Origin: Lachnospiraceae bacterium
GTDB taxonomy: Bacteria; Bacillota; Clostridia; Lachnospirales; Lachnospiraceae
Direction: 5' to 3'
Length of the DNA: 64,000 nucleotides
Assembly (NCBI GenBank): GCA_014804485.1
Contig: JAAUZT010000007.1
Span: 66,928-130,927, forward strand
The notes under the pieces were generated by a model. It saw nothing but the letters and a program-made list of their open reading frames with translations. It searched no databases and was not told the DNA's origin. Made by a program: the position numbers and the translations under genes. Positions 2,623-41,553 of this stretch are shown here, piece by piece. Each line of letters opens with the position of its first letter. Position 1 is the first letter of the stretch.

Positions 2623-2709
2623 GGAAGAATGCACTCTTTTTGCATTCTTCCGTGCGAAACTATAGAATTTCTTAGCCCGCGTACTCTGCGGGCTTAGAAA
2701 TTCTTTTCG
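2623..2709. repeat. Family A two-hairpin element, hbd-bcd spacer
   Basis: In mRNA sense the element starts 5 nt after the hbd stop codon. It has a hairpin with stem CTAAGCCCGC/GCGGGCTTAG, enclosed by CGAAAAG and CTTTTCG-like flanks, and then a second perfect hairpin GGAAGAATGCA/TGCATTCTTCC. The same architecture recurs five times in the ribosomal operon. This is the only copy outside it in the window, and its stem replaces GGCG/CGCC of other copies with a compensated CCCGC/GCGGG pair. Confidence 0.85.
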
Positions 2710-2714
2710 CATTA

Positions 2715-3554
2715 TTATTTTGAATAGTCGAAAAATCCTACGCCGGTCTTTCTGCCGAGTTTCTTCTCTTCAACCATCTTCTTCAGAAGCGGCTGCGGAG
2801 CATATTTCTCATCCTTAGTCTCGTTGTAGAGAACTTCCATGATTGCAAGGCAGATATCCAGACCGATCAGATCGCCCAAGTGAAGCGGTCCCATCGGATG
2901 AGAAGCGCCGAGCTGCATAGCAACATCGATATCTTCTGCGGACGCCGTGCCGGCATCCAGTACGCCGATTGCCTCGTTGATCATCGGGATCAGGATTCTG
3001 TTTACAACGAAACCAGGAGCTTCCTTAACCTGTACGGGAGTCTTGCCGATCTCTGTAGCGATAGCCGTGATCTTGTCTACCATCTCCTGAGGAGTATTCT
3101 CGCCTCTGATAACCTCTACCAGTTTCATTCTGTCAGCAGGATTGAAGAAGTGCATACCGATCATCGGTCTGTCTAAGCCTTCTCCGATCTTGGTGATGGA
3201 AAGAGAGGATGTGTTGGATGCAAACATACAGTCTTTCTTAACGATACCCATCAGCTCTTTAAAGATAGACTGCTTGATTTCCATTTTCTCAAGAGCAACC
3301 TCTATGATCAGGTCGCATTCTGTACAGATGCCGTTTAAGCCGGTTGTGATCTTACCCATGATCTCGTCAGCTTTTTCCTGTGTGATCTTCTCTTTGCCGA
3401 CAAGGAAGTTCATGTTCTTCTGAATCTTCGCCTTGCCGCCTTCTGCGTACTCTTCTTTGATATCGCAGAGGCAAACTTCATATCCGTCTGTCATAGCGAA
3501 TGCCTGTGCAATACCGGAACCCATCGTTCCTGCACCGATAATACCTACTTTCAT
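2715..3554 (-). CDS. hbd: 3-hydroxybutyryl-CoA dehydrogenase
   Basis: Hbd reduces acetoacetyl-CoA to 3-hydroxybutyryl-CoA with NAD(P)H, the second step of the butyrate pathway. The 279-residue protein has the N-terminal Rossmann motif GIIGAGTMGSGIAQ (residues 4-17), SNTSSLSITKI, the catalytic His135 in MHFFNPADRM with Glu147 downstream, and a C-terminal dimerisation domain ending GRKTGVGFFDY. The length is typical of the bacterial enzyme. AAGGAGG precedes the ATG. It lies 26 nt after crt in the same operon. Confidence 0.97.
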   Translation of the reverse strand: MKVGIIGAGTMGSGIAQAFAMTDGYEVCLCDIKEEYAEGGKAKIQKNMNFLVGKEKITQEKADEIMGKITTGLNGICTECDLIIEVALEKMEIKQSIFKELMGIVKKDCMFASNTSSLSITKIGEGLDRPMIGMHFFNPADRMKLVEVIRGENTPQEMVDKITAIATEIGKTPVQVKEAPGFVVNRILIPMINEAIGVLDAGTASAEDIDVAMQLGASHPMGPLHLGDLIGLDICLAIMEVLYNETKDEKYAPQPLLKKMVEEKKLGRKTGVGFFDYSK

Positions 3555-3580
3555 TGTAAGTCCTCCTTATTTATTTAATA

Positions 3581-4366
3581 TTATTTGTTTTTAAAAGGCT
3601 CTTTCACCTTCTCCTTATTCTTGTCAAGGAAGAATGCCATACCGTACTTCTGGTCTTCTGTCTCGAAGCAGTCACCAAACAGCTTCTCTTCGATCACGAT
3701 TGCCTCGTCCATGCCAACCTCTAAGCCGTCATTGATCGCTTTCTTGCAGTTGCGGACAGCGATCGGTGCATTCTTAGCAATGCCTGCTGCCATCTTCTCA
3801 GCGGCTGCCATCAGCTCTTCCTGCGGATATACAGCGTTTACAAGACCGATTCTAAGCGCCTCGTCTGCTTTGATATTTCTTGCCGTGTAGATCATCTGCT
3901 TCGCCATGCCCGGTCCTACGATTCTGGCAAGTCTCTGTGTACCGCCGAAGCCCGGTGTAATACCGAGACCAACCTCAGGCTGACCGAATACCGCATTATC
4001 GGAACAGATTCTGATATCACAGCTCATGGAGATTTCACATCCGCCACCCAATGCAAAGCCGTTTACTGCCGCAATGACGGGAATCGGGAATGTCTCTAAC
4101 TTACGGAATACGTCATTACCCTTCTTACCGAAAGCTTCGCCCTCTGCCTTGGTCAGTGTGCTCATCTCGCCGATATCAGCACCTGCTACGAAAGATTTCT
4201 GACCTGCGCCTGTTAAGATCAGGCATCTTACTTCATCCAGATTCACGCCGTCCAGAGTCTCATTCAGCTCGTCCAGCACGGTAGAATTAAGTGCATTAAG
4301 CGCTTTCTCACGGTTGATGGTGATAACACCGACCTGTCCTTTTACCTCATATAATACAAATTCCAT
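3581..4366 (-). CDS. crt: 3-hydroxybutyryl-CoA dehydratase (crotonase)
   Basis: Crt removes water from 3-hydroxybutyryl-CoA to give crotonyl-CoA. The 261-residue enoyl-CoA hydratase fold shows the oxyanion-hole segments SFVAGADIGEM (about 59-69) and NGFALGGGCE, and both catalytic glutamates of true hydratases, Glu111 in GGCE and Glu131 in GQPEVGLG. AAGGAG precedes the ATG. The 241-nt spacer upstream, between it and thl, contains a family B structured repeat, which is unusual inside an operon. Confidence 0.97.
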   Translation of the reverse strand: MEFVLYEVKGQVGVITINREKALNALNSTVLDELNETLDGVNLDEVRCLILTGAGQKSFVAGADIGEMSTLTKAEGEAFGKKGNDVFRKLETFPIPVIAAVNGFALGGGCEISMSCDIRICSDNAVFGQPEVGLGITPGFGGTQRLARIVGPGMAKQMIYTARNIKADEALRIGLVNAVYPQEELMAAAEKMAAGIAKNAPIAVRNCKKAINDGLEVGMDEAIVIEEKLFGDCFETEDQKYGMAFFLDKNKEKVKEPFKNK

Positions 4367-4443
4367 TGTATCTGTCTCCTTCTAAATATGTTTCATTATT
4401 CATAATTAACTGGTTACTTCTCACATACGCCAATAATCAGCCT

Positions 4444-4572
4444 GAATAGATAGAGAATTCTCAAGGAGGCCCTAGAACAGCGCCAGCACTTAGCGAGGTT
4501 TTCCACGAGCTTAGTGTCTGCTGCGCTGTGAAAGGAGCGAAAGCGAGCCGACGGAGAATTTTCTATCTGTTC
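4444..4572. repeat. Family B structured element, copy 1 (thl-crt spacer)
   Basis: A core of about 95 nt (4462-4554) is closed by long arms, GAATAGATAGAGAATTCTC at the left and its near complement at 4554-4572. The core contains AACAGCG pairing with CGCTGT, the single-stranded-looking CGAGGT and ACGAG blocks, and GGAGCGAAAGC near the right end. The core is clearly homologous to 13068-13157, but the arms are different. It lies in the leader region of crt within the butyrate operon. Confidence 0.75.
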
Positions 4573-4607
4573 GGGCGTCACCTTTAGCAAATATGTAAAC
4601 AGTAATA

Positions 4608-5789
4608 TTAATCTCTCTCAACGATAGTAGCACATCCCATACCGCCGCCGATACACAGTGTAGCAAGACCCTTCTTAGCGTCCTTAGCTTCCATCTCATG
4701 AAGCAGCGTTACAAGGATACGGCATCCGGAAGCGCCTACCGGATGACCCAGTGCGATTGCACCGCCGTTCGGGTTAAGCTGCTTGTCTACATCGATACCG
4801 AGTTCTTTGCCTACTGCTACGGACTGAGCCGCAAATGCCTCGTTTGCCTCGATGATATCGAAGTCTTCGATCTTGTAGCCTGCCTTCTCCATAACTTTCT
4901 TAGTAGCCGGAACAGGACCGATACCCATAACCTCAGGTCTGCATCCTGCAAGAGCGCCAGCTACGAATGTAGCCATCGGCTTAACACCTAATTCTTTTGC
5001 CTTCTCTTCGCTCATCACAACGATTGCTGCCGCACCGTCGTTGATACCGGAAGCGTTACCTGCCGTAACAAATCCGTTAGGATTGATCGGACGAAGCTTC
5101 TGAAGTCCTTCGATCGTGGAACCCGGTCTCGGTCCCTCATCAACCTTGAACTCAACCATCTCTTTTTTCTTCTTAACCATAACAGGTACGATCTCTTTAT
5201 CAAAAGCGCCGCTCTTCTGAGCTGCCTCAGCCTTTGCCTGACTCTTTAATGCGAACTCATCGAGTTCTTCACGGGTAAGTCCCCACTCTTCACAGATATT
5301 GTCTGCTGTCTTAATCATATGATAGTTATTAAAAGCATCCCACAATGCATCGTTTACCATGGTATCTACCAGAGTACCGTTATTCATTCTGTAACCGTAA
5401 CGTCCCTGCATCATAGCGTAAGGAGCCATAGACATGTTCTCCATACCGCCCGCTACAACGATATCGGCATCGCCTGCCTGAATCATCTGTGCTGCCATGT
5501 TGACACAATTAAGACCGGAACCGCACACTACGTTGATGGTAACTGCCGGAACCTCATTGGGAAGTCCTGCTTTGATGGATGCCTGACGAGCCACGTTCTG
5601 ACCCTGTCCTGCCTGAATAACGCATCCCATGTAAACATGGTCAACCTGATCGGGCGCTACTCCTGCTCTGTTCAACGCTTCCTTAATTACGATTGCTCCA
5701 AGCTCTGCTGCCGGAGTCGTGCTTAAGCCTCCGCCCATAGTACCGATAGCCGTACGGCAAGCACCTGCCAAAACAACTTTTTTTGCCAT
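4608..5789 (-). CDS. thl: Acetyl-CoA acetyltransferase (thiolase)
   Basis: Thiolase condenses two acetyl-CoA to acetoacetyl-CoA, the entry step of the butyrate pathway. The 393-residue protein has the acyl-accepting Cys89 in NVVCGSGLN, His349 in GHPVGASG and Cys379 in CIGGGMGCA, the full thiolase triad. The start is placed at the ATG at 5789, which has GGAGGG 7 nt upstream and gives the usual [17 protein letters not shown]-terminus; the open frame extends upstream to 5849 but nothing supports that. It is the first gene of the operon thl-crt-hbd-bcd-etfB-etfA. Confidence 0.97.
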
Positions 5790-5820
5790 CTTCTTTCCCT
5801 CCATTGTGGTATGATTGTTA

Positions 5821-5849
5821 GATAGATCTTTGATTTTCCAGAGTGACAA
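5821..5849 (-). promoter_or_regulatory. Possible promoter of the butyrate operon
   Basis: On the minus strand TTGTCA (5844-5849) is separated by 17 nt from TCTATC (5821-5826), about 30 nt before the thl ATG. The -10 match is poor, so this is a weak candidate; it is the best-placed sigma-A-like pair in the 93-nt gap between the upstream M23 gene and thl. Read-through from upstream is also possible because no terminator was seen. Confidence 0.3.
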
Positions 5850-5882
5850 CGATTGTTATTTTTTTATCATTGTCCGCTTCTC

Positions 5883-7064
5883 CTATTGTAGCATAGAGGT
5901 ATCCTTTTTGCAATGGTTTTCTACCTCGGGATCTGCCATTTCACGGGTACGTTTCCACTCTTTTGTGCCCTCGATTTTTGCCACCTCACTGCGGTTGCGG
6001 TAGAGGAATTTGGTCAGCTCATAACAGTCCACCCAGATCTCGTTATTTCCTTCTTTCTGGGATTCGTCGAAAATAAGTTGAAGTCCCCAGTGCAGATGTA
6101 CCGTCTCGATATTATTGACATTTTCTTTCGTGCTGTAACCGGTGTGTCCCATATAGCCGATCACGTCCCCCGCCGTGACCACGCTGCCCTCCTCAAGCCC
6201 TTCCGCATACGGGTAATTCTGGCGCAGGTGGGCATAATAATAGTATCTGCTGCCGTCGAAGCTGCGGATGCCGATGCGCCAGCCGCCGTATTGATTCCAG
6301 CCGAGCGCCTCCACGACGCCGGACTCGATGCATATGATTGGCGTGCCGATCTGACCCATCATGTCATGACCCAGATGCGGTCTGGAATAGCCATAGCTTC
6401 TGGAAGCTCCGAAGTCGTCATAATGGCTGTAGTCAAAGCCTTTTGCAATCGGAGAGAAGGCTTTCAGTCCGTAATAACGGTTCCACTGATTCTCCTCCCG
6501 TAAGGAAAACTCGCCCACCATTCCGCCAAGCACTGCCGTGTACGCCTCCAGATAATAGTCGTAATACTCCATATCCTTCGTCAGCTCTTCCATGGTTGTC
6601 TCACCTTCGGTCAGCTGCCTGGCCGTCTCGCTGATTTTCTTTACGCTGTTCTTATCGAATTGGCCTCCTGTCCTTGCGCCCACATAGGCGAGAAGCTCGA
6701 TCCAGTTAAGGTGCACATCCTTTTCATAAGATTCCACATCCAGATCGTAGGCTGCCGCCATCGCCTCGCAAGTCACGTTAAACTCCACCCATTTTATGAA
6801 ATTGCCATCCGCCGTCACCTCGATTGCCTCACCGGAATCTGACGTCCGCCATGCTTCCTCCTGCGCGCTCTCCGAACCCTGCCACCTGCCTGTCAGTTCT
6901 TTGGTAATCGCCACACAGCCCAGCGCGATCAGCAGGAGCAGTTCGATCCGTATGGCATATCCGATCCTGCTGCCTGTTTTTCCGGCGCTTCCGTACATGT
7001 TTCTGCCTCTGCCGCCATGATCTTTGACTTTCCTGACTTTTCTACTGTCTCTCCCTATCCCCAT
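5883..7064 (-). CDS. Membrane-anchored M23-family metallopeptidase
   Basis: Probable peptidoglycan endopeptidase outside the membrane. Starting at 7064 it has 393 residues: a basic N-terminus, one membrane segment (about residues 34-53, IRIELLLLIALGCVAI), a region of about 180 residues with no recognised domain, and a C-terminal LytM/M23 domain with zinc-site motifs HLGHDMMG, YYYAHLR and HLHWGLQ. All ligands expected of an active M23 enzyme appear present. The ATG at 7064 has GGAG 5 nt upstream; a further ATG at 6998 after AGAGG is an alternative, and the frame also extends to a GTG at 7133. It is upstream of thl but functionally unrelated to it. Confidence 0.85.
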   Translation of the reverse strand: MGIGRDSRKVRKVKDHGGRGRNMYGSAGKTGSRIGYAIRIELLLLIALGCVAITKELTGRWQGSESAQEEAWRTSDSGEAIEVTADGNFIKWVEFNVTCEAMAAAYDLDVESYEKDVHLNWIELLAYVGARTGGQFDKNSVKKISETARQLTEGETTMEELTKDMEYYDYYLEAYTAVLGGMVGEFSLREENQWNRYYGLKAFSPIAKGFDYSHYDDFGASRSYGYSRPHLGHDMMGQIGTPIICIESGVVEALGWNQYGGWRIGIRSFDGSRYYYYAHLRQNYPYAEGLEEGSVVTAGDVIGYMGHTGYSTKENVNNIETVHLHWGLQLIFDESQKEGNNEIWVDCYELTKFLYRNRSEVAKIEGTKEWKRTREMADPEVENHCKKDTSMLQ

Positions 7065-7174
7065 ATACACTCCATATGTCACTGCCGCCCGCTCGCGTCG
7101 TGAGCGCCATTGAAGCATTCCTGTTTCGACCACCCTTGTGCCAATGCGGGCAAATTTATGGTTATGTATATGAA

Positions 7175-7209
7175 AAATCCCCGCGGGTTATGACAGCCCG
7201 CAGGGATTT
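7175..7209 (-). terminator. Intrinsic terminator after the GT2-GtrA gene
   Basis: On the minus strand the stem AAATCCC-T-GCGGG pairs with CCCGC-G-GGGATTT and is followed by TTTTTC. It lies 50 nt after the stop of the glycosyltransferase gene and would end that two-gene transcript. Confidence 0.85.
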
Positions 7210-7258
7210 GTACGTTTGAACGTATCATTCTTCTCATTCTGTCGGAAAGGCATACACA

Positions 7259-8332
7259 TTAACTCTTGAAACGGTATACAAATTCCCTCTGAATCACAAA
7301 GCTTAAGAAAAACAGAAGAATGTCCACCGGCATCTTGATTAGCACTTCCGTTCCGCCGATCAGACCATACAGTGCATTGACAAGAAAAGCGCTGCACAAC
7401 ATCTGGCAAAAGGCCAGCAGAGAGTACTTGCCCGCGGTGACCGCAAGATTACCCTTACTCTTAAATACAACCCGGTAATTGATCAGGAAATTATATACGG
7501 CGGAAATCACCCGTGCGCACACGGTCGCCGCCACAATATACGGAATGCCGCGCACTGCCTCTCCAAGAGGTTCAAACATCACGCAGAACATGTGAAAAAG
7601 TAACAGATCCAGCACGCTTGATGAGATCGACGAGAACAGAAACTTCCCGAACACCAGATAGATCCGCACGGAATCCTTGATTGGATTGAAATGGCTTGTC
7701 CGGTTTTCCTCGATGTAAACCGTCTCCACCGATACTTCTGTAATCGGAATATTAAGATTCTTCGTCTCGATCAGCATATTGGTCTCATACTCGAACCGCT
7801 CCCCTTTTACCTGCATTAATTCTTTCATGAAAAAAGCCGGAATCGCCCGCAGTCCGGTCTGAGTATCCGAGACGGATAATCCCAAAAGATACCGGAATAC
7901 CTTCCTTGTACACTTGTTGCCAAAAGATGATCTTGCCGGAACGGACGGTGCATCGAAATCCCTGCATCCCAATATCAGTGCCGTCGGTTTCTCCCACAGC
8001 TTACGCATGCATGTCAGAATATCCTCCGGCGTATGCTGTCCGTCAGAGTCTGCCGTCACACAGCCCACAGCGTCGTCGTATACCCACAGACAATGATTGA
8101 ACGCCGTCTTAAGCGCACGGCCTTTACCCAGATTCACGGCATGATGCAGCACGGTGCAGTTGTCCACCGCCTCCGCCTGTGCAAAGAGCTTCGCATATCG
8201 CTCCCCACTGCCGTCGTCCACCACAATCACATGACGGATTCCTGTCTCCTCCAGTGCGTGAAGAAGCGTAATCAACTTTTCGTCCGGTTCATACGCAGGT
8301 ATGATTACCGGTATATCATAGTAGGAAGCCAT
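7259..8332 (-). CDS. Family 2 glycosyltransferase fused to a GtrA-like membrane domain
   Basis: Residues 1-220 are a GT-A glycosyltransferase with VIIPAYEP, VVDDGSG (nucleotide binding) and the metal-binding TADSDGQH; it resembles polyprenyl-phosphate sugar transferases. Residues 225-357 are a GtrA/DPMS-type domain with four probable membrane helices. Such fusions are thought to load a sugar on a lipid carrier and help move it across the membrane for cell-surface glycan modification. AGGAG precedes the ATG. The gene is 26 nt after a GT-C-like membrane protein, a plausible partner using the lipid-linked sugar. Substrate unknown. Confidence 0.88.
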   Translation of the reverse strand: MASYYDIPVIIPAYEPDEKLITLLHALEETGIRHVIVVDDGSGERYAKLFAQAEAVDNCTVLHHAVNLGKGRALKTAFNHCLWVYDDAVGCVTADSDGQHTPEDILTCMRKLWEKPTALILGCRDFDAPSVPARSSFGNKCTRKVFRYLLGLSVSDTQTGLRAIPAFFMKELMQVKGERFEYETNMLIETKNLNIPITEVSVETVYIEENRTSHFNPIKDSVRIYLVFGKFLFSSISSSVLDLLLFHMFCVMFEPLGEAVRGIPYIVAATVCARVISAVYNFLINYRVVFKSKGNLAVTAGKYSLLAFCQMLCSAFLVNALYGLIGGTEVLIKMPVDILLFFLSFVIQREFVYRFKS

Positions 8333-8358
8333 TTCCCGTTCTCCTTCTTAGTTCAAAC

Positions 8359-10371
8359 CTAGGCGTCTTTTGACACGCGTGTCAGTTCCATATTTACACC
8401 GTCATCCTCGATGCGGTACAACACACCGCAAGCAAAAGCGCCCTCCCGCGTAATCTCATCGAAAACCTCGCCTGTATCCGCTTCCGTATCTTCCGCATAG
8501 AGATATGCTGCATGGGAGGCTCTGATCTCCTGCACCATCCATTCCGTGGGCGCGTCATCCAGGTTGACGCTCTTGTACACTACCGATATCGGAGAAGCCT
8601 CATAAGCCGTATAACTGTTATTCACCCAGCGGGGCGTATCGCCTCTGCGAATATAGCATACCCTCGCACCCGTGTCCGTTTCGAGAATCCGTATCGTTTC
8701 CAAAAATTCCGCCTCATCCGCACCGATCATCTCTGCGCGTTCGGCAAGCCTTGCCTCTGTCTCCTGCCGGTAGCCGACCAGACCATGATACCCAATCCGA
8801 TAGCCCGCTGTCAATGCCACAAAAAGGATAAAACACAAGTATGCACCGTATTTTCGTAGGAAGGCCGGCATCTTTTCACTCTGAAATATCACATCTCCCC
8901 GATTCAGCCATATACCCGCCAGGAACAGAAGCGTGCCAATGGTAAAGGGCGCCCCGTAACGCTCGATGGACGAGATCATCCCCGCCGCTTCCAGATACTG
9001 CGTCTCCGTAGCAAAGATCGTGATATGCGCCACAAAAATAATTCCATAGAAAAGTGCGCCGCTGACCACGGTAAACCATAATATGATCCGTCTCTGCCAT
9101 CCGGACAGCAGCGGACGCATAAGAATCACAAGCACACAGATACACAGATACAGACCAAGCGGTGTCAGATCAATAACGACACTCTTCTCCTTATGAAGGG
9201 GCGAACTCACGAATGCCTTCAGAAAAGCCCTTGCAAATTCGCCCGTGTAACCTGAGATACCGTACTCATCGGTGGTCATATACTTCACCGCCGTAGCCGT
9301 CGTCTTCGTTACACGCCGCATAATGAGGCAGAAGACCATCCAACTGCCGCCCGTAAGCACCGGTACTGACGCCACCGCTGCCACGGATAACAATCCCCGG
9401 AATTTATGTTGATCTGCCGCCACGGATGACAGTCCGCGCGATTTATTCTCATCTGCCGCCACAGTTTCACTGCGCTGATACAGAAGCATAAATATCAAGC
9501 CAAATAACGCCCAGACAAAACCGATGGATTTGACTAATACCAGAACTCCCAAATAGAGCCCCAGCCTCCCGTAAAAGTAAATTTCTTCGGAATGAACTTT
9601 ACGAGATTCGCCCCGCGTCCCCAAAATCCAGGTACTTTTTCCCTGCGGCATATCGGTCACCGCGTACAGGAAACCGCCATAGATACACGCCATAGTCAAA
9701 TCGGCGCAGAAACCGTCGTAGCCGTATACCTCCGCTATACTCGGCATAAACCACAATGCTGCCGCCATGAAAAACATCACAAACACATTCCTGCCTTTTA
9801 GTCCCCTAAGCAGCGGCAGCAGAAACACCAGATTCATCACATAGTAGCCGGCAAACGCTAATCCTTCCCGAAATTCGTGGGGACTCAAATGCAAAAACCA
9901 CCACTTAAACAACTGTGCTGCCGGCGGATAATCTCCGAACTCCGGAGCCACATTAGCATATTTCTTCGCAAAACCGTCTAAAAAATACAATGATTTCACG
10001 TCTGTCGCCCAGAAGTTAATATCATCCCACCATGTTACGACTTTGCCTGATGTACACAGCATTGTCACGATCAGCAAAAACACGGCCGTAAGAAATGACG
10101 TTTCTGTCATATTATTCAGGCATACACTGCCAAACTCTTTACGCTGTTCCCGCCGCCTGCTCATCAGCCAAATACCAAACGACACCACCGCCAATGCCGC
10201 AATCCCGTCGATCCACGACAACTGCCCCGCCATCGCAAGCGCATAGAGAAGCAGTACAAGCCCACAGGTAAAGACCGGCATGATTTCCACCAGACTAACC
10301 CGAAAGCAATATGCCAGAAAAAATATACAAACCGAAACAGCAGCTATATGAAGTATCGTCAAATATATCAT
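8359..10371 (-). CDS. Large polytopic membrane protein, GT-C glycosyltransferase-like
   Basis: A 670-residue protein with about a dozen predicted membrane helices and a soluble C-terminal tail of about 130 residues. An early extracytoplasmic loop reads TWWDDINFWATDVKSLYF, resembling the acidic loop of GT-C enzymes that use lipid-phosphate sugars, followed by YPPAAQLFKWWF. Pairing with the GT2-GtrA gene supports a role in surface glycan transfer, but that is inference. A cytoplasmic loop holds a 13-residue tandem duplication (9375-9452). The ATG at 10371 has only AAAAGG close upstream. A family D hairpin lies 40 nt before it. Confidence 0.75.
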   Translation of the reverse strand: MIYLTILHIAAVSVCIFFLAYCFRVSLVEIMPVFTCGLVLLLYALAMAGQLSWIDGIAALAVVSFGIWLMSRRREQRKEFGSVCLNNMTETSFLTAVFLLIVTMLCTSGKVVTWWDDINFWATDVKSLYFLDGFAKKYANVAPEFGDYPPAAQLFKWWFLHLSPHEFREGLAFAGYYVMNLVFLLPLLRGLKGRNVFVMFFMAAALWFMPSIAEVYGYDGFCADLTMACIYGGFLYAVTDMPQGKSTWILGTRGESRKVHSEEIYFYGRLGLYLGVLVLVKSIGFVWALFGLIFMLLYQRSETVAADENKSRGLSSVAADQHKFRGLLSVAAVASVPVLTGGSWMVFCLIMRRVTKTTATAVKYMTTDEYGISGYTGEFARAFLKAFVSSPLHKEKSVVIDLTPLGLYLCICVLVILMRPLLSGWQRRIILWFTVVSGALFYGIIFVAHITIFATETQYLEAAGMISSIERYGAPFTIGTLLFLAGIWLNRGDVIFQSEKMPAFLRKYGAYLCFILFVALTAGYRIGYHGLVGYRQETEARLAERAEMIGADEAEFLETIRILETDTGARVCYIRRGDTPRWVNNSYTAYEASPISVVYKSVNLDDAPTEWMVQEIRASHAAYLYAEDTEADTGEVFDEITREGAFACGVLYRIEDDGVNMELTRVSKDA
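9375..9452. repeat. 39-bp tandem duplication inside the membrane protein gene
   Basis: Two adjacent 39-nt units encode VAADENKSRGLSS and VAADQHKFRGLLS. The period is a multiple of three, so the frame is kept; the extra copy lengthens a hydrophilic loop between two membrane helices. Confidence 0.8.
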
Positions 10372-10410
10372 TACCTTTTAAACCCCGTATCTCACACGTT
10401 ATATCCTCTT

Positions 10411-10443: not shown

Positions 10444-10521
10444 AAACCTTCCGAACAGTTACTCCTCTGCTTATTATACATACTCAGAAGCAGTATTGCA
10501 TCTGCTTCTTTCGCACATAAT

Positions 10522-10549: not shown

Positions 10550-10559
10550 GGATAACTCC

Positions 10560-14296: not shown

Positions 14297-14607
14297 TAAG
14301 ATTAAAGTGTCAAAAAGTGCATTAAAGAATTTTGATAAGCAGATTGTACAAAATGTTCTCGAAGCTGTCCTGCGGAGGAATATGAGATTTTCTTAATATT
14401 CCGTTCAATAGCCAGAAATTTCGGGACACGGATGTCCCGAAAAGCCCGTAATGAGCCCGGATGGCGAATAGAGGGCGGTTTCGTCCGTTATCACAACTTT
14501 ATCGGAATATTTTAGAAAATCCATATGACGCAGCCCGACACAAGAGAACATTTTGTACAATCTGCCCTCTCAACCTATCATAATCATCTTTTGACACTCG
14601 AATCTTA
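14297..14607. repeat. Family L large palindromic element, copy 1
   Basis: A 311-bp element with terminal inverted repeats TAAGATTNNAGTGTCAAAA. Inside are nested inverted arms: GCAGATTGTACAAAATG... (from 14339) with its complement ending at 14564, GATTTTCTTAATATTCCG with CGGAATATTTTAGAAAATC, and a hairpin TTTCGGGACA/TGTCCCGAAA. The centre holds a strongly conserved unpaired stretch around AGCCCGTAATGAGCC and GGCGAATAGAGGGCGGT. A second copy is at 52917-53220 in the same orientation. It carries no open reading frame of note. Confidence 0.85.
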
Positions 14608-29828: not shown

Positions 29829-29915
29829 GGGAAGAATTGCGGTTTTTGCAATTCTTCAGGACGAAACATAGATTTTCTTAGGCTGCGTCCTTTGCTGCCT
29901 TAGGAAATCTTTTCG
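29829..29915. repeat. Family A two-hairpin element, rpsK-rpsD spacer
   Basis: Starts 5 nt after the rpsK stop in mRNA sense. Hairpin one is GATTTCCTAAGGC with its complement, hairpin two GAAGAATTGC/GCAATTCTTC; the second stem is one pair different from the other copies but still fully paired. Confidence 0.85.
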
Positions 29916-29920
29916 TTCTA

Positions 29921-30316
29921 TTATACGCGGCGACGCTTAGGCGGACGACATCCGTTATGAGGCACGGGCGTCACGTCACGGATACTTGTCACTTCCAGAC
30001 CGCATGCCTGCAATGCACGGATTGCTGCCTCACGACCCGAACCCGGACCCTTAACCATAACATCTACTGTCTTTAAACCATGTACTAAAGCAGCCTTAGC
30101 CGCTGTCTCTGCAGCCATCTGTGCCGCATATGGAGTAGATTTCCTTGAACCTCTAAAACCAAGACCACCTGCACTTGCCCAGCTTAATGCGTTACCTTCT
30201 GTATCTGTTAAAGTAACGATCGTATTGTTAAAAGAAGACTGGATATGTGCCTGTCCACGTTCAACGTTTTTCTTTACACGCTTTTTTGTCACTTTTTTTG
30301 TAACTTTTTTAGCCAT
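29921..30316 (-). CDS. rpsK: 30S ribosomal protein S11 (uS11)
   Basis: S11 forms part of the 30S platform near the E site. The 131 residues include [35 protein letters not shown] and the C-terminal [23 protein letters not shown]-type tail. The N-terminus has a lysine-rich repeat (VTKKVTKK). Its ribosome-binding site (TAGGTTAG) is weak. It is 80 nt after rpsM. Confidence 0.97.
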
Positions 30317-30765: not shown

Positions 30766-31000
30766 TTACGTTTCCTCCATTTTCTTTACGTTTCATACGA
30801 GATTGCGTCCGAGTTTACGAAGCAAATCCCGTAAGCGGGCTTTGCCCGCCTTACTAATTGATTGGGGTAGGTTCTACCCAACCGGATCAGGTATCCGATC
30901 TTTCCAAACATAATTGTTGGTATCAAAAAGTAATCTCCCATTAGGCTCCGGCATCTATATAAAATAGGCAAGAACCCCGTTAAACTAAATCATTCGGGGA
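30766..31000 (-). other. Hairpin-rich rpmJ-rpsM spacer
   Basis: The 235-nt spacer contains at least three inverted repeats: AAGCGGGC/GCCCGCCTT (30829-30851), GGGTAG/CTACCC (30864-30878) and CGGAT/ATCCG (30881-30896), plus CCCCG/CGGGG just after rpmJ. A 51-codon frame (30786-30941) with GGAG before its ATG exists but is built mostly from the palindromes and is not called. It may hold a leader RNA for the rpsM-rpsK-rpsD-rpoA-rplQ part. Confidence 0.45.
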
Positions 31001-34622: not shown

Positions 34623-35062
34623 TAGATCACCTCTGCTGTTCCACCAAGTGCCTCGATCTTTTCTTTCGCGGATGCGCTGAAAGCATTCACTTTCACATCG
34701 AGTTTCTTAGTAAGTTCTCCGTTTCCAAGAATCTTAACCCCATCGCGAGGATTCTTGATGATCCCTTTCTCAAGCAGTACATCCACGTCAACTGTCGCGC
34801 CGTTATCGAACACTTCAAGCGCACTTAAGTTGATCGCCACGATATCCTTAGAATTCCTGTTGGTAAAACCTCTCTTAGGAATACGTCTGTATAACGGCAT
34901 CTGACCGCCTTCGAATCCGATTCTGGGTGCTCCTGAACGAGCTTTCTGTCCCTTATGACCCTTACCGGCTGTCTTACCGTTGCCTGAACCGTGTCCACGA
35001 CCTCTTCTAAAATTATCACTGTGTACTGACCCGGGCGCGGGTCTTAAATTTGATAATTCCAT
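34622..35062 (-). CDS. rplO: 50S ribosomal protein L15 (uL15)
   Basis: A late-assembling 23S rRNA-binding protein. The 146 residues show [19 protein letters not shown], the glycine-rich [20 protein letters not shown] and [24 protein letters not shown] precedes the ATG. It follows rpmD by 14 nt and overlaps secY by one base. Confidence 0.97.
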
Positions 35063-35076
35063 TCTGACACCTCCTT

Positions 35077-35277
35077 TTATGCTTCTTCTACTTTAACCAT
35101 ATGTCTTACTTTCTGAATCTGACCTCTGGTTGATGCATTGTCAGGCAGTTCCACTGTCTGATGAAGTTTCCTGAGACCCATAGCTTCAACCGTTGCCCTG
35201 TTTTTCGGAACCTGACCAATGGTAGATTTAATTAAAGTAATCTTTAATGTTTTAGCTGCTTCTTTCTTTGCTGCCAT
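35077..35277 (-). CDS. rpmD: 50S ribosomal protein L30 (uL30)
   Basis: The 66-residue protein carries [21 protein letters not shown]-type sequence and [13 protein letters not shown], with a short lysine/alanine N-terminal extension compared with the usual 60 residues. AGGAGG is 8 nt before the ATG. It lies between rpsE and rplO. Confidence 0.96.
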
Positions 35278-35324
35278 CTTCTTTTCCTCCTAAATATTCT
35301 GACCGATCAACAACCTTCGGTAAC

Positions 35325-35834
35325 TTAAGCGCGAATCTCTTCTACGGATTTACCGCGGTTCTTAGCTACTTCTTCAGGAGTCTTTAACTGGCGCAGTCCC
35401 GCGATCGTAGCAAGTACGACATTCTGCTTATTGTTGGAGCCTAAAGATTTCGTACGGATATTCTTGATACCTGCAAGTTCACATACAACACGGGCAGGAC
35501 CTCCTGCGATAATACCGGTACCTTCCGGAGCTCTCTTAAGGAGTACGGAAGCAGAACCGAATTTTCCGATAAAATCGTGTGTGATACTGCTGTTATCATC
35601 AAGTGCAACAGAAACTAAGTTCTTGATCGCATCTTCCTTACCTTTGCGAATTGCTTCAGGGATTTCAGTTGCTTTGCCTAAGCCTGCACCAACATGACCA
35701 TTGCTGTCACCGACTACTACAAGAGCCGTGAAACGCATGTTACGACCACCTTTAACAACCTTAGTAACACGTTTGATCGTTACTACTTTTTCAGTCAATT
35801 CTAACTGACTTACATCAATGATTGTACGTCTCAT
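35325..35834 (-). CDS. rpsE: 30S ribosomal protein S5 (uS5)
   Basis: S5 contributes to decoding accuracy and mRNA unwinding at the entry tunnel. The 169 residues have an N-terminal double-stranded RNA-binding domain ([39 protein letters not shown]) and a C-terminal domain with [20 protein letters not shown] and [12 protein letters not shown]. It starts 20 nt after rplR. Confidence 0.97.
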
Positions 35835-35853
35835 GTGATTTCCTTCTCCCTTC

Positions 35854-36222
35854 CTAGAATTCTAAGCCAGCTTCTCTGGCTGCCTCAGCTAATGCTGCAA
35901 TTTTACCCTGATATATAAAGCCGCCTCTGTCAAAGACAACAGTCTTAATACCTTTTTCAATTGCTCTCTTAGCGATTACTGTTCCTAAATATGCTGCTGC
36001 ATCAACGTTATTGGTTTTCTCCAGTTCAGACTTTACAGACTTCTCGAGAGTAGACGCCGAAACTAAAGTATTTCCAACTGTATCGTCAATAATTTGAGCA
36101 TACATATGATTATTACTTCTGAACACAGAAAGACGCGGTCTCTCAGCGGTGCCGCTGAAACGGTTACGCAGTCTGTTGTGTTTTTTTACACGAACTTTTT
36201 GTCTTGATTCCTTACTAACCAT
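35854..36222 (-). CDS. rplR: 50S ribosomal protein L18 (uL18)
   Basis: L18 binds 5S rRNA. The 122 residues include [41 protein letters not shown] and the end [26 protein letters not shown]-type tail. The ATG at 36222 is 9 nt from AGGAG and gives the family start; the ATG two codons upstream at 36228 is only 3 nt from it but cannot be excluded. Confidence 0.96.
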
Positions 36223-36242
36223 CTTCATACTCTCCTTATCTG

Positions 36243-36785
36243 TTATTTCTTACCAGTCTTACCAACTTTACGTCTAATTGTCTCATCAGCATACTTGATA
36301 CCCTTGCCCTTATAAGGCTCCGGTCTTCTCTTGTCTCTGATCTCAGCCGCAAATTGACCAACTTTTTCTTTATCAATACCTTTGACGATGATTACGTTCT
36401 GTCCTTCCATGACAGTCTCGATACCTTCGGGATCTGTCATTTCCACCGGATGAGAGTAACCCAGGTTAAGTGTCAGAGTCTTGCCTGATTTGGACGCTCT
36501 GTAACCTACGCCGTTTACTTCCAGCTTCTTCTCGTATCCTTCCGTTACACCGACAACCATATTGTGGATCAGTGTTCTTGTCAGACCGTGGAAAGATTTC
36601 ATCTTCTTTAAATCATTGGGTCTGGATACTACAACCTGATCGCCTTCTACTTTGATTTCCATTTCTGCCGGAAGCACTCTCTCAAGTGTTCCCTTAGGAC
36701 CTTTTACAGTCACTTTATTATTTTCTGCTACCTCAACGGTTACCCCCGCGGGAATAGCGATTGGCATTCTTCCTATACGTGACAT
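36243..36785 (-). CDS. rplF: 50S ribosomal protein L6 (uL6)
   Basis: L6 lies near the sarcin-ricin loop. The 180 residues have two similar domains, starting [15 protein letters not shown] and ending with the conserved [27 protein letters not shown] is 7 nt before the ATG. The 159-nt spacer to rpsH holds a family A element. Confidence 0.97.
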
Positions 36786-36852
36786 GCCCGTACCTCCTGT
36801 TTTAATTGTGTTAGAAGTTATTTATTCTTACTATAAAGTACACCATTTCGAT

Positions 36853-36940
36853 GGAAGAATGTAAGCGCAAGCGACATTCTTCCGGACGAAACATAGTATT
36901 TCTTAGGCGGCGTATTTCGGCGCCTTAGAAATTCTTTTCG
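36853..36940. repeat. Family A two-hairpin element, rpsH-rplF spacer
   Basis: Starts 4 nt after the rpsH stop in mRNA sense. Hairpin one TTTCTAAGGCGCC/GGCGGCCTTAGAAA-type stem, enclosed by CGAAA/TTTCG; hairpin two GGAAGAATGT/ACATTCTTCC with an 11-nt loop. Confidence 0.85.
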
Positions 36941-36944
36941 TCCA

Positions 36945-37346
36945 CTACCAGACGAAGGCTAACACTTCGCCGCCTACCTGCAGCTCTCTTGCCTTCTTAT
37001 CCGTTACAACTCCCTGATTGGTGGAGATGATTGCAACGCCCAGACCTCCGAGAACTCTCGGCAGATCCTCTTTGCCGGCATATACACGAAGACCCGGTTT
37101 AGAGATTCTCTTGATTCCGGAAATGATCTTGTCATTCTTATCCTCGCCGTATTTCAATGTGATATGAATGGTCTTGAAACTGCCGTTATCGATCAAATCG
37201 AATTTCCTAATATATCCTTCATCCAAAAGAATCTGCGCGATAGCCAATTTCATCTTAGATGAGGGTACATCTACTGTATCATGTTTTGCAGTATTTGCAT
37301 TACGGATTCTTGTAAGCATATCTGCAATAGGGTCGCTCATTGTCAT
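36945..37346 (-). CDS. rpsH: 30S ribosomal protein S8 (uS8)
   Basis: S8 is an early 16S rRNA-binding protein and, in E. coli, the spc operon repressor. The 133 residues include [33 protein letters not shown], and the C-terminal [21 protein letters not shown]-type sequence ending [14 protein letters not shown] is 7 nt before the ATG at 37346. Family A elements flank it on both sides. Confidence 0.97.
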
Positions 37347-37407
37347 GATTTTTCCTCCTTAAATTATTGATCCGCTTATTTCATTCACTTATCCCAGTCA
37401 ATGCACT

Positions 37408-37497
37408 GGAAGAATGCAAGCGTCAGCGACATTCTTCCCAACGAAACTTAGTTTTTCTTAGGTGCGGTTCTTTCGCACCTTAGTAAAACTTTTCGTT
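37408..37497. repeat. Family A two-hairpin element, rpsZ-rpsH spacer
   Basis: Starts 3 nt after the rpsZ stop in mRNA sense. This copy is the most divergent: its first stem is AGTTTTACTAAGGTGCG with matching CGCACCTTAG...AACT, so both arms changed together relative to other copies. Hairpin two GGAAGAATG/CATTCTTCC is unchanged. Confidence 0.85.
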
Positions 37498-37500
37498 GCT

Positions 37501-37686
37501 TTACCAGCTTGCTTTCTTAACGCCGGGGATCTGACCTTTATATGCTAATTCACGGAAGCAAATTCTGCAAATTCCGTACTTTCTTAAATAAGCATGTGGA
37601 CGACCACAGATTTTGCAACGATTGTATTCTCTTACGGAGAATTTCGGTTTACGCTGCTGTTTGATCTTCATTGCTGTCTTAGCCAT
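37501..37686 (-). CDS. rpsZ: 30S ribosomal protein S14, zinc-binding type Z
   Basis: The 61-residue protein is the short, zinc-containing S14 form with [20 protein letters not shown], a CxxC-CxxC zinc site, and the end [11 protein letters not shown]. It is the housekeeping form in this group. GGAGG precedes the ATG, 14 nt after rplE. Confidence 0.97.
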
Positions 37687-37700
37687 GAATTTACCTCCTT

Positions 37701-38243
37701 CTATTTAGCGAATGGCATGTTAAATAATCTCAACAACTCACGAGCTTCCTCATCCGTCTTCGCGGTGGTGACAATGATCACGTCCATACCTCTGACCTTA
37801 TCTACCTTATCATACTCGATCTCCGGGAAGATGATCTGCTCCTTAATACCCAGTGCATAGTTACCTCTGCCGTCAAAGGAGTTAGGATTAACACCTCTGA
37901 AGTCACGTACACGGGGAAGAGCAAGGTTTACGAGGCGATCCAAAAATTCATACATCTTATCGCCGCGGAGTGTCGTCTTACATCCGATTGCCTGACCTTC
38001 TCTGATCTTAAAGTTAGCAACAGAGTTCTTAGCCTTCGTTACGACTGCCTTCTGTCCGGTGATCGTTTCCATATCACTCACAGCCGCTTCCAGAACCTTA
38101 GCGTTTTCCTTCGCTTCACCGACGCCCATGTTGATTACGATCTTGTCAAGTTTCGGAACTTCCATAACATTTTTATATCCAAACTTTTTGACCATAGCAT
38201 CTACGATCTCGTTCTTATACATCTCTTTCAGTCTACTACTCAA
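37701..38243 (-). CDS. rplE: 50S ribosomal protein L5 (uL5)
   Basis: L5 binds 5S rRNA and contacts P-site tRNA. The 180 residues have [21 protein letters not shown], the conserved [20 protein letters not shown] and [14 protein letters not shown]. The start is a TTG at 38243 with AGGAGG 9 nt upstream; no ATG in the vicinity gives a complete protein. Confidence 0.96.
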
Positions 38244-38267
38244 CGTTTTAGACCTCCTTTCTTAGAA

Positions 38268-38579
38268 TTAGTCAATGATGTCACCTGTGGATTTCGCATA
38301 GCGGACCTTCTTATCATTCTCGAACTTGAAACCGATCCTTGTTGCTTTACCCTTGTGTACATACATTACATTGGAAGCGTTGATAGGTGCTTCCTTCTGA
38401 ACAATGCCGCCGTTCTGATTAGCTGCTGAAGGCTTCTCATGCTTTGTAATCATGTTGATTCCCTCAACCAGAACCTTATTGTTCTTTCTGTCTACGGATA
38501 TAACTTTGCCTTCTTTGTCTTTGTCTTTACCGGCGATCACCTTAACGGTATCACCTTTTTTAATCTTAAATGTTGACAT
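38268..38579 (-). CDS. rplX: 50S ribosomal protein L24 (uL24)
   Basis: An assembly-initiating 23S rRNA-binding protein. The 103 residues contain the KOW motif [20 protein letters not shown] (about 5-24), [21 protein letters not shown] and [23 protein letters not shown] is 7 nt before the ATG; it is 11 nt after rplN. Confidence 0.97.
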
Positions 38580-38590
38580 ACCGGCACCTC

Positions 38591-38959
38591 CTATAATACT
38601 TCCGGAGCCAGTGAAACAATTTTCATAAACTGTTTATCACGAAGCTCTCTCGCTACTGGTCCAAAAATACGGGTTCCTCTCGGAGTTTTATCCTCCTTGA
38701 TGATAACAGCAGCATTCTCGTCAAATCTGATATAAGATCCGTCTTTACGACGAGCGCCTTTTACACTACGAACAACTACAGCCTTTACAACGTCGCCTTT
38801 TTTTACAACGCCGCCTGGTGTTGCGTCTTTGACCGTAGCAACAATGATATCACCGATACGTGCATATCTTCTTGTAGAACCGCCCACAACTCTGATGCAC
38901 AGAAGCTCTTTTGCACCGGTATTGTCAGCGACCTTAAGTCTGCTTTCCTGTTGAATCAT
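38591..38959 (-). CDS. rplN: 50S ribosomal protein L14 (uL14)
   Basis: L14 forms intersubunit bridges. The 122 residues start [19 protein letters not shown] and include [20 protein letters not shown] and [13 protein letters not shown], all conserved. AGGAG is 8 nt before the ATG. The 136-nt spacer to rpsQ holds a family A element. Confidence 0.97.
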
Positions 38960-39005
38960 GCTGATTTCTCCTTCTTTCCATTATTGTACAGATTACCGAC
39001 ACCTC

Positions 39006-39091
39006 GGAAGAATTTTCGAAGAAAATTCTTCTAAACGAAACATAGTATTTCTTAGGCGGCGTATTTCAGACGCCTTAGAAATTCTTTTCGT
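39006..39091. repeat. Family A two-hairpin element, rpsQ-rplN spacer
   Basis: Starts 4 nt after the rpsQ stop in mRNA sense. Hairpin one is the CTAAGGCG/CGCC-TTAG stem within CGAAA/TTTCG; hairpin two is GAAGAATTTTC/GAAAATTCTTC, extended by two pairs relative to other copies and with a 3-nt loop. Confidence 0.85.
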
Positions 39092-39095
39092 TTTA

Positions 39096-39350
39096 TTATT
39101 TTGCTTTCTCGACAATCTCAACAAGTCTCCATCTCTTATCCTTGGATAAAGGTCTGGTCTCCATTACCTTAACTGTATCACCGATGTTGCACTCATTGTT
39201 CTCATCATGTGCTTTCAATTTATAGGTCTTCTTCACAATTTTCTTGTAAAGCGGATGTTTAACATGGTCTTCGATTGCTACCACGATCGTCTTATCCATC
39301 TTGTTACTGGTTACCTTACCAGTACGTGTCTTTCTTAAATTTCTGTCCAC
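39096..39350 (-). CDS. rpsQ: 30S ribosomal protein S17 (uS17)
   Basis: An early 16S rRNA-binding protein with an OB fold. The 84 residues include [39 protein letters not shown] and [19 protein letters not shown]. It starts with GTG at 39350, with GGAG 8 nt upstream. The short spacer to rpmC has two small hairpins, GATTTCAG/CTGAAATC and GAATTGC/GCAATTC. Confidence 0.97.
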
Positions 39351-39426
39351 GATTGAGTCTCCTTTCCTATGATTTCAGTAAACTGAAATCGCATGAATTG
39401 CTTTGCAATTCTTACAGCGTCGTTTC

Positions 39427-39636
39427 TTAATTTACTGCTTTTGCCTTCTCAGTGATCACGGTCTGTATTCTGGCGATGTTTCTTCTGACATCTTTGATTC
39501 TTGCCGTGTTATCCAACTGATTGGTTGCATTCTGGAATCTCAAATTGAAAAGTTCTTTCTTCGCATCAACCAATTCCTGCGCTAATTCTGCATCTGATTT
39601 GTTCTTTAAATCTTCTACAAATTTATTAGTTTTCAT
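39427..39636 (-). CDS. rpmC: 50S ribosomal protein L29 (uL29)
   Basis: L29 lies near the tunnel exit and helps dock the signal recognition particle and trigger factor. The 69-residue helical hairpin starts [20 protein letters not shown] and has [18 protein letters not shown] and [15 protein letters not shown]. The ATG at 39636 is chosen by family length; it overlaps the rplP end by 11 nt, so the two are coupled. Confidence 0.96.
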
Positions 39637-40063
39637 TCGATACACCGCCTTCCAAATCCGCTTTAGAAACGATCTTACATTTGCATGGAAGCTTATGTGT
39701 TGCAAGACGTAACGCTTCTTTAGCTACATCCTCAGCTACTCCCGCAATCTCGAACATAACACGTCCGGGTTTTACAACTGCAACCCAGTATTCCAGAGTA
39801 CCTTTACCGGATCCCATACGTGTCTCAGCCGGTTTCGCTGTTACAGGTTTATCAGGGAATATTTTGATCCAGACTTTACCGCCACGCTTAATATGACGAG
39901 TCATAGCAATACGGGCTGCCTCGATCTGGTTGGACTTAATCCAACAGGGCTCTAATGCTACAATACCGTACTCACCGTAGGTGATCGTGTTGCCACGGGT
40001 AGCTTTTCCGCTCATAGAGCCGCGAAACTGTTTACGACGTTTTACTCTTTTAGGCATTAACAT
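39626..40063 (-). CDS. rplP: 50S ribosomal protein L16 (uL16)
   Basis: L16 organises the A-site region of the 50S. The 145 residues begin [17 protein letters not shown] and contain [36 protein letters not shown] and [13 protein letters not shown]. The ATG at 40063 overlaps the rpsC stop by one base and has GGGAG 9 nt upstream; a second ATG two codons in is possible. Confidence 0.97.
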
Positions 40064-40719
40064 TATTTATCGCTCCCTTCCACATTAGATTTAGTCGGAA
40101 GTACCTCACCTTTATAGATCCATACTTTGACACCGAGCTTACCGTATGTCGTATCGGCCTCTGCAAAACCGTAGTCAATATCTGCTCTCAAAGTCTGAAG
40201 CGGGATAGTACCCTCGCTGTAGAACTCTGTACGAGCGATATCTGCGCCGCCCAGACGTCCGGATACAGCAGTCTTGATGCCTTCTGCTCCTGCTTTCATG
40301 GTTCTGCCCATGCAGGACTTCATGGCACGTCTGAAAGATACACGATTCTCAAGCTGCTGTGCGATATTCTCCGCAACAAGCTGTGCATCTTTATCAGGTC
40401 TCTTAATCTCTTTGATATCTACGAAAACTTTCTTGCTTGTCAGCTTGGAAAGTTCTTTCTTGGTCACTTCGATCTCTGCACCGCCCTTACCGATCACAAC
40501 ACCCGGTTTTGCAGTGTAGATGATTACTTTCACTCTGTCGGATGCTCTCTCGATCTCGATCTTAGAAATACCGGCACTGTATAATTTCTTCTTTAAGTAT
40601 TCTCTGATGTTGTAGTCTTCTACTAAGAAATCAGAAAACTCTGCATCAGCATACCATTTAGAATCCCAATCTTTAATGATACCGACTCTGAGGCCGTGTG
40701 GATTAACTTTCTGTCCCAT
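40063..40719 (-). CDS. rpsC: 30S ribosomal protein S3 (uS3)
   Basis: S3 lines the mRNA entry tunnel. The 218 residues start [20 protein letters not shown], carry the KH domain motif [15 protein letters not shown] (about 73-87) and the C-terminal domain with [23 protein letters not shown] precedes the ATG. It is 23 nt after rplV. Confidence 0.97.
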
Positions 40720-40742
40720 GTTGTTCTCCTTCCTATATGATC

Positions 40743-41129
40743 CTATCTTTCATCAAGCACGATTGTGATGTGGCTCATTCTCTTCTCGATCCTGTAGGCC
40801 CTGCCCTGTGCTCTCGGTCTTACTCTCTTCATGGTCGGTCCCTTGTTTGCATAGCACTCTGCAATGTAAAGGTTCTCCACATTCATACCGTTGTTGTTCT
40901 CTGCATTCGCAATCGCAGACTCTAACAGCTTCTTAATAATGCTTGATGCGTATCTCGGATTATATGCAAGGATCGCAAGCGCCGTCTCCACATCTTTTCC
41001 TCTGATGGCATCCAATACGAAACACGCTTTCTGAACAGACACTCTGGCGTAAGATAACTTAGCGGAGGGTCTTGTGTCTTTATTCGCGTTTCTCTCTCTC
41101 TTTATTTGGGATCTATGTCCTTTAGCCAT
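40743..41129 (-). CDS. rplV: 50S ribosomal protein L22 (uL22)
   Basis: L22 has a loop reaching into the exit tunnel, a site of macrolide resistance mutations. The 128 residues include [39 protein letters not shown] and the loop [27 protein letters not shown] precedes the ATG, 21 nt after rpsS. No deletion or insertion is seen in the loop. Confidence 0.97.
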
Positions 41130-41150
41130 AGATTTATGCCTCCTTTCAAA

Positions 41151-41432
41151 TTAGCGGACTTTAGACTTTCTCTCGTCCTTATCGTGTCCTCTATAAGTTC
41201 TGGTCGCTACGAACTCGCCGAGTTTGTGACCAACCATATCCTCTGTAACATATACCGGTACATGCTTTCTTCCGTCATGAACAGCGAATGTGTGTCCCAC
41301 GAAGGAAGGGAAGATCGTAGAGCGGCGGGACCAAGTCTTAATAACCTGCTTCTGTCCTGACGCGTTCATAGCATCTACTTTCTTCAATAAGCTCGCATCT
41401 GCAAACGGTCCTTTTTTCAGTGATCTTGCCAT
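41151..41432 (-). CDS. rpsS: 30S ribosomal protein S19 (uS19)
   Basis: S19 sits in the 30S head. The 93 residues start [19 protein letters not shown] and include [20 protein letters not shown] and the end [21 protein letters not shown] is 6 nt before the ATG. The 125-nt spacer to rplB holds a family A element. Confidence 0.97.
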
Positions 41433-41470
41433 TTCAAACCTCCTAAATTATTCTATATTCTCACAGCCTC

Positions 41471-41553
41471 AGAAGAATCGCGTTGTGATTCTTCCAACCG
41501 AAACTTAGAATTTCTTAGGCGGCGTCCTTCGACGCCTTAGAAATTCTTTTCGG
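41471..41553. repeat. Family A two-hairpin element, rplB-rpsS spacer
   Basis: Starts 4 nt after the rplB stop in mRNA sense. Hairpin one AGAATTTCTAAGGCGTCG with matching complement, within CGAAA/TTTCG; hairpin two AGAAGAATC/GATTCTTC with a 6-nt loop. Confidence 0.85.

Follow-up and report, generated by a model that had tools for sequence, protein, structure and literature searches.

A double-hairpin repeat anchored to stop codons in ribosomal operons of Lachnospiraceae

Six double hairpins in a 64-kb window

The DNA analysed here, called the window, is a stretch of 64,000 nucleotides from the genome of a Lachnospiraceae bacterium (GenBank assembly GCA_014804485.1, contig JAAUZT010000007.1, positions 66,928 to 130,927). 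It contains six copies of an element of about 90 bases, which consists of two adjacent hairpins and follows closely behind stop codons. The six copies, originally predicted from the letters alone, were confirmed at their coordinates, and all are on the minus strand. Copy a (2623..2712) is located 3' of the TAA of a 3-hydroxybutyryl-CoA dehydrogenase-type gene (2715-3554) and 5' of an acyl-CoA dehydrogenase-type gene (1388-2539). Copy b (29830..29918) lies between the stop of rpsK (S11, 29921-30316) and rpsD (S4), copy c (36853..36943) between the TAG of rpsH (S8, 36945-37346) and rplF (L6), and copy d (37408..37498) between the TAA of rpsN (S14, stop at 37501-37503) and rpsH (S8). Copy e (39006..39093) separates the TAA of rpsQ (S17, 39096-39350) from rplN (L14), and copy f (41471..41555) the TAA of rplB (L2, 41558-42400) from rpsS (S19).

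The assignment of five copies to the ribosomal superoperon was borne out by NCBIfam matches above cut-off for S4, S11, L6, S8, L14, S17 and L2; S14 and S19 were identified from sequence and gene order. For the proposed butyrate operon around copy a, the best NCBIfam matches are 3-hydroxybutyryl-CoA dehydrogenase, short-chain enoyl-CoA hydratase and acyl-CoA dehydrogenase, which are strong, yet below the curated cut-offs. The element model begins 1-2 nt past the end of the stop codon, whereas the next start codon follows 38-83 nt beyond the element, in agreement with the predicted near-fixed spacing on one side and variable spacing on the other. The core CGAAAAG-N4..7-CTAAG occurs six times in the window, compared to 0.01 occurrences expected from shuffles.

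In an alignment of the six copies, the blocks CGAAAAG, CTAAG, CTAAG, CTA and TTTCG are invariant and the stems between them are variable. The folding energy of each copy is 5.7 to 8.7 standard deviations below that of its own shuffles, and none of 200 shuffles per copy was equally stable. Hairpin I is a single hairpin of about 60 nt, and hairpin II is located directly 3' of it. At the base of the consensus hairpin I, NNNCGAAA is paired with TTTCGNNN, which constitutes a variable outer stem. AG/CU pairs adjoin a bulge of 3 nt, A[A/U]G, in the 3' arm, and a variable stem follows; in the upper part, CUAAG is opposite CUAAG with an A.A mismatch, below a variable apical stem. In copy c, folds and alignment place hairpin I at 36884..36943 (minus strand), with the outer stem GGACGAAA/TTTCGTCC, the bulge AUG, CUAAG/CUAAG with the A.A mismatch, and an apical stem and loop; hairpin II is at 36853..36883 (minus strand) and has the form GGAAGAATGT.../...ACATTCTTCC. 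The stems of the original prediction were correct, but CGAAA and TTTCG, which had been regarded as flanks of the hairpins, pair with each other as the arms of the outer stem.

A dispersed family with covarying stems

A covariance model was built from the six window copies and used to search the genome of origin (G000; 3.97 Mb in 58 contigs, 85% complete). This yielded 69 matches at E<=1 and at least 50 at E<=6.1e-4, with scores computed for 150 of 751 candidates; the ribosomal operon contributes five of these 50. The sequence context was analysed for 55 of the 69 matches, the other 14 being ten opposite-strand shadows of listed copies and four tandem neighbours. The window copies therefore belong to a larger family, which has many further members across Lachnospiraceae. 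The element was found in 35 of 37 genomes of the same genus and in none of 24 genomes from other families. Searches at the family and the order level, in which about 21 candidates per genome were scored and which consequently give lower bounds, detected it in at least 17 of 200 and at least 7 of 196 genomes, respectively, the own genome being included in both; one order-level genome, with two weak matches, is from another family. A pattern search of a species collection returned at least 116 loci. The 80 listed ones mostly carry Lachnospiraceae names such as Parablautia, Acetatifactor and Eisenbergiella, and a few are labelled only Clostridia, Clostridiaceae, Ruminococcus or Bacillota. These 80 loci, which include some records of the same genus, provided the species-collection set of 83 copies; as it was found by pattern, the patterned letters are conserved there by construction. 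The family is a lineage-specific dispersed repeat of Lachnospiraceae. Carriage by viruses was rejected, because viral contigs contain no exact match to the element pattern. No Rfam 15 family matched the elements, either in the whole window at the gathering cut-off or, at relaxed E, in window positions 36600-41800 and in six loci that represent other subfamilies, and no description of this element appeared among the papers listed by full-text literature searches.

Subfamilies are distinguished by their outer arms (CGAAA/TTTCG, CATGA/TCATG, GATGA/TCATC and TGAGA/TCTCA), and the eight-position outer arms occur in 62 distinct versions among 102 copies. In the two model-found sets, 68 of 102 and 30 of 49 copies have two CTAAG motifs, and 71 of 102 and 39 of 49 have the bulge motif CTA[AT]G. 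These motifs are thus common, but not universal. An intrinsic terminator was rejected for lack of a U tract behind the hairpins: a T-rich tail was found in only two of the 55 own copies, and none of 83 species-collection copies has a T6 within 60 nt of hairpin I. Two further observations concern the extent of the element. A related tail, about GGGTTGTGAGAGTAATTCC, is found 3' of some copies of the AGACATG subfamily (L018, L027, L041, where it follows hairpin II, and L039), so that the complete element may exceed two hairpins. Tandem arrays also exist, with four units in genome G112 (G112:C25:27131-27549) and three matches at one own locus (L043, G000:C11 86321-86582).

Pairing in both hairpins is strongly backed by covariation. 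Two-sided changes were observed at 27 of 34 pairs in the own copies (n=49; 301 cells compared to 98.8 in shuffles), at 31 of 34 in the ribosomal-operon loci plus window copies (n=102), and at 30 of 34 in the species-collection copies (n=91). In each set, the level of covariation was reached by none of 500 shuffles. The claim that the stems vary in sequence yet remain paired is therefore confirmed.

G.U and A.C cells were counted in both hairpins. Given in the order of the three sets, hairpin I has 16/12, 38/32 and 25/25 such cells, against 1029, 2094 and 1981 Watson-Crick cells, and hairpin II has 22/11, 34/15 and 22/33. One-sided changes in hairpin I led to G.U or A.C in 12/11, 35/25 and 20/21 cases, compared to 244, 330 and 588 two-sided changes. 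As a control, the S10 leader of the same operons was used (25 distinct sequences). In this small control, whose structure was chosen by energy, 14 one-sided standard changes were observed, five of which were gains of G.U; there was no one-sided A.C and a single two-sided A.C cell. A tRNA control was dropped, because ARAGORN reported nine tRNAs in the loci, without pairing. Hairpin I pairing thus looks nearly strand-symmetric, as in folded DNA or after copying of one arm. Since G.U wobbles are hardly more common there than A.C mismatches, the pairing may be maintained largely at the DNA level. Among similar copies at the same site (50 non-independent comparisons), 36 events were two-sided Watson-Crick changes, 16 led to G.U, nine to A.C, and 22 were of other kinds; 125 changes fell into the unpaired columns, which are far fewer, and paired columns consequently change less per column. 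Resident hairpins therefore keep their pairing, and G.U is somewhat favoured over A.C in these comparisons.

Placement at stop codons and turnover between relatives

Ribosomal-operon stretches were compared in 51 genomes of the genus (50 fetched plus the window), some of which end at contig ends. An rplE match was found in 53 other genomes, and 50 of these were fetched; G001, G068 and G093, in which rplE is near a contig end, were left out. Used were 111 of 126 matches, the excluded ones being the butyrate copy and 14 matches with E >=0.0013, seven of them opposite-strand shadows. All 111 copies are in sense orientation; one shared orientation relative to transcription had been predicted for the window copies. 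The element starts at -1 to +4 nt of the stop codon in 92 of the 111 copies, 67 of which start at +2, and its distance to the next start covers a wide range. The remaining 19 copies are located farther into the spacer and are largely second units or remnants. Genome-wide, the stop codon of a sense open reading frame (ORF) is found at -4 to +27 of the element start for 30 of 55 own and 56 of 83 species-collection copies, compared to 8.5% and 9.7% of random intergenic positions, respectively. This rule considers ORFs of at least 70 aa and consequently overlooked S14, a short gene, at one own copy. A lack of preference for stop codons or transcript orientation, which would have spoken against a functional RNA, was looked for; the preference is strong.

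Occupied spacers in the ribosomal operons are L23|L2, L2|S19, S17|L14, S14|S8, S8|L6, S11|S4 and S5|L15, and rarely others. None of the 111 copies is found in the spacers L3|L4, S19|L22, L22|S3, L14|L24, L5|S14 and L18|S5, which are of near-constant length, or in the longer spacers S10|L3 and S13|S11. Across the genus, ribosomal spacers fall into two classes, one of near-constant length and one that is plastic and reaches up to 440 nt; the rigid class may mark translationally coupled gene pairs. In 20 low-copy genomes, 15 of 89 matches are within 12.4 kb of rplE, compared to less than one expected by length; the 89, counted by hand with three genomes without an rplE match omitted, include a few opposite-strand shadows. 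Nine of these 20 genomes have no match near rplE.

The comparison of orthologous spacers showed that presence and absence differ among near-identical relatives. Across the window and four relatives with 99% L5 identity, L23|L2, L2|S19, S17|L14, S14|S8, S8|L6 and S11|S4 each occur both in a filled and in an unfilled state. In two relatives, the S14|S8 spacer contains a different hairpin I within the same outer CAAC/GTTG, next to a hairpin II with a single base difference. A comparison of 24 further own copies with five relatives gave junction-spanning matches for at least ten among the matches listed, nine of which were aligned. Relatives have kept stubs of the element at L038, L049 and L029, and two of four relatives have done so at L046, which indicates that losses by deletion are common. 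At L040, an unfilled TAG GTTACT corresponds to a filled TAA AA followed by the element. A junction without target duplication is seen at S17|L14 (L246, TAACA|GTATT, compared to L247), where L246 is possibly a loss itself. A target duplication is not consistent across the comparisons of filled and unfilled sites; L2|S19 may have a TA duplication.

A locus encoding a STAS protein, for which 30 loci from 75 genomes were matched, illustrates how the element affects gene ends. Among the 24 loci without the element, 20 proteins end at the EIMD position or at most two residues away and four extend further. In the six carriers, the proteins run two to five residues into the element, and its own TAA or TGA terminates the gene.

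Side observations were made in the same regions. At S8|L6 of four relatives (L245, L248, L250 and L253), an unlike hairpin array, starting with GGAGCAATAAAATCAAGCGCG, is found directly 3' of the rpsH TAG; one post-stop site can therefore host other hairpin families. The Rfam scan of the window identified an S10-Clostridia leader at 44588-44669 and an S4-Clostridia leader at 30857-30904, so that the ribosomal operons hold leaders in addition to the repeats. It further returned two copies of the cis-regulatory TwoAYGGAY RNA (RF01731) at 14370-14536 and 52986-53152, both with about 111 bits.

Origin of the repeat and comparison with known systems

The filled and unfilled sites in near-identical relatives, the changes of subfamily and the stubs indicate that the family acts as a mobile or fast-turning-over repeat. 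We consider it likely that it is a lineage-specific, non-coding mobile fold-back repeat of two adjacent hairpins, which inserts in the sense direction, directly at stop codons or only a few bases from them. Of the two explanations originally offered, insertion at a stop-codon context is thus well supported by the filled and unfilled sites, the stubs, the family-wide stop anchoring and the STAS locus, where the element is located at the relatives' stop. A folded single strand of DNA, or possibly RNA, would be recognised by a putative mobilising enzyme. The element would often create or replace the stop, by TAANA or by a TAA or TGA within its own 5' arm. Located 3' of a stop and 5' of the next ribosome-binding site, it would be tolerated and co-transcribed, and highly expressed operons would consequently bear it as an intercistronic hairpin. 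Its arms remain complementary as the sequence drifts, with the 3' bulge and the A.A mismatch retained in most copies. In mRNA, the hairpin is probably a secondary barrier or processing site that separates the decay of adjacent cistrons.

Several observations weigh against this explanation. Unfilled sites can be losses, and several of them carry stubs. At L036, a clean unfilled site, the insert is located seven codons before the native stop, replaces the end of the protein and brings extra flanking bases; insertion exactly at the stop is therefore not universal. The ORF rule places 25 of the 55 own copies, and 27 of the 83 others, outside the stop window. The element abuts TANNNTA, a -10-like heptamer, in 15 of 55 own copies, compared to 2 of 83 others; the S11 stop is among these 15, and some more are in or beside coding sequence, so that not all are promoters. 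The retained pairing of resident copies, deduced from non-independent comparisons, could equally reflect host selection for function. Finally, a systematic search for Y1 transposases, a reading of the flanks by eye and the comparisons of filled and unfilled sites revealed neither an autonomous copy nor a mobilising gene, nor any target duplication that was consistent.

A credible, though less probable, alternative is a cis-acting mRNA element, an endonuclease processing site or a barrier at the 3' or 5' side, which would be selected between cistrons and set relative expression in high-output operons. The copies at ribosomal operons are exclusively sense, in a co-transcribed position, anchored to stops and enriched, no terminator-like U tract follows the hairpins of the family, and similar copies at the same site change less in paired columns, with two-sided changes and 16 G.U against nine A.C. 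Intercistronic stem-loops of the cip-cel operon provide a precedent (PMC10311766). This alternative must accommodate sites that are filled or unfilled among near-identical relatives, the wobble counts of hairpin I, the contrasting S10 leader control, and an opposite-strand gene next after 8 of 56 stop-anchored copies. The second of the original explanations, an RNA that tunes decay or coupling, may thus hold: the covariation of the stems is in its favour, and the weak preference for G.U in hairpin I, these eight opposite-strand cases and the 15 copies at a -10-like heptamer count against it. It is plausible that the element affects mRNA processing, decay insulation or coupling at some sites.

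Plain sequence-targeted insertion 3' of TAANA- or TATAATA-like motifs, with stops and -10 boxes being the places where copies survive, is possible but rather doubtful. The left flank is A/T-rich and TAANA-like, with an A at -1 in 82% of 55 own and 99% of 83 other copies, TANNNTA precedes the 15 own copies mentioned above, and TAA stops are more frequent at filled ribosomal sites (60 of 81, a list compiled by hand) than at sites without a match (101 of 188; p=0.002). However, the motif is lacking in many stop-anchored copies, and of the 987 non-coding TAA[ACT]A sites in the examined loci only 94 are stops, far below the stop-anchored share of copies. A pure TAANA target was rejected for this reason, the more so as elements in the examined loci would, if anything, inflate the share of stops.

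Expression-coupled insertion is a speculative and unlikely variant. Here, an enzyme would read the 3' bulge and the A.A mismatch and join the folded strand to an exposed non-template strand; this strand, left bare by transcription, would be found just behind the last ribosome, at the stop codon, or in an open promoter, at the -10 box, though we would not expect this to be so. If true, it would explain at once why copies are in sense orientation, occur in stop and -10 contexts and are in excess in ribosomal operons.

Mobilisation by an IS200/IS605 or RAYT (REP-type) enzyme, which the imperfect hairpins, the orientation specificity and the duplication-free S17|L14 junction (if L246 is not a loss) might suggest, is very improbable and was not supported: Y1_Tnp (PF01797) has no match in the own genome, nor in six further genomes that are rich in copies (G013, G032, G034, G061, G067 and G091), and the A-rich, TAANA-like flanks show no GTAG or CGTC foot at the base of the hairpin. 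Y1_Tnp is present in 30 of 77 genomes of the genus and the six Y1-free ones hold 12 to 85 element matches; in this 85% complete genome, a Y1 gene could have been missed.

The repeat reshapes intercistronic spacers at precise positions in one of the most conserved operons of bacteria. This rewriting offers many natural pairs of filled and unfilled sites for studying the effects of post-stop hairpins on mRNA decay, coupling and ribosomal-protein stoichiometry.

By its location closely 3' of stops and its co-orientation, the element qualifies as a stop-proximal palindromic repeat, and the YPAL and REP repeats appear to be its closest kinds. De Gregorio et al. (2006) reportedly found YPALs closely downstream of stop codons, where they raise upstream transcript levels. 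YPAL (RU-2) of Yersinia is likewise a small palindromic intergenic repeat with empty and filled sites that is linked to upstream genes; in contrast, it is longer (about 168 bp), has target duplications of 3-26 bp and belongs to another lineage, and the YPAL passages, on whose description the comparison is based, mention no CUAAG/A.A or 3' bulge (PMC2229807). REP and BIME repeats with RAYT are hairpins near gene ends as well, and passages on them state that GTAG REP termini often supply the stop of flanking ORFs (PMC3733652); they differ in that no GTAG foot or RAYT was found here and that our element has two unlike hairpins in strict stop phase. Miniature elements of the ERIC, Correia and RUP type are also small, but are described with terminal inverted repeats (PMC2229807), and here no clear target duplication was found. 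ERIC and NEMIS have been proposed to affect the stability or cleavage of mRNA (PMC2229807). The stem-loops of the cip-cel operon of Ruminiclostridium cellulolyticum are likewise located between cistrons, where they serve as cleavage signals and stabilise transcript ends; they are an operon-specific set, and the passages describe no dispersed family (PMC10311766). Compared by such descriptions, the element appears to be distinct from YPAL and REP by its strict stop phase, its common bulge and mismatch, and its ribosomal bias.

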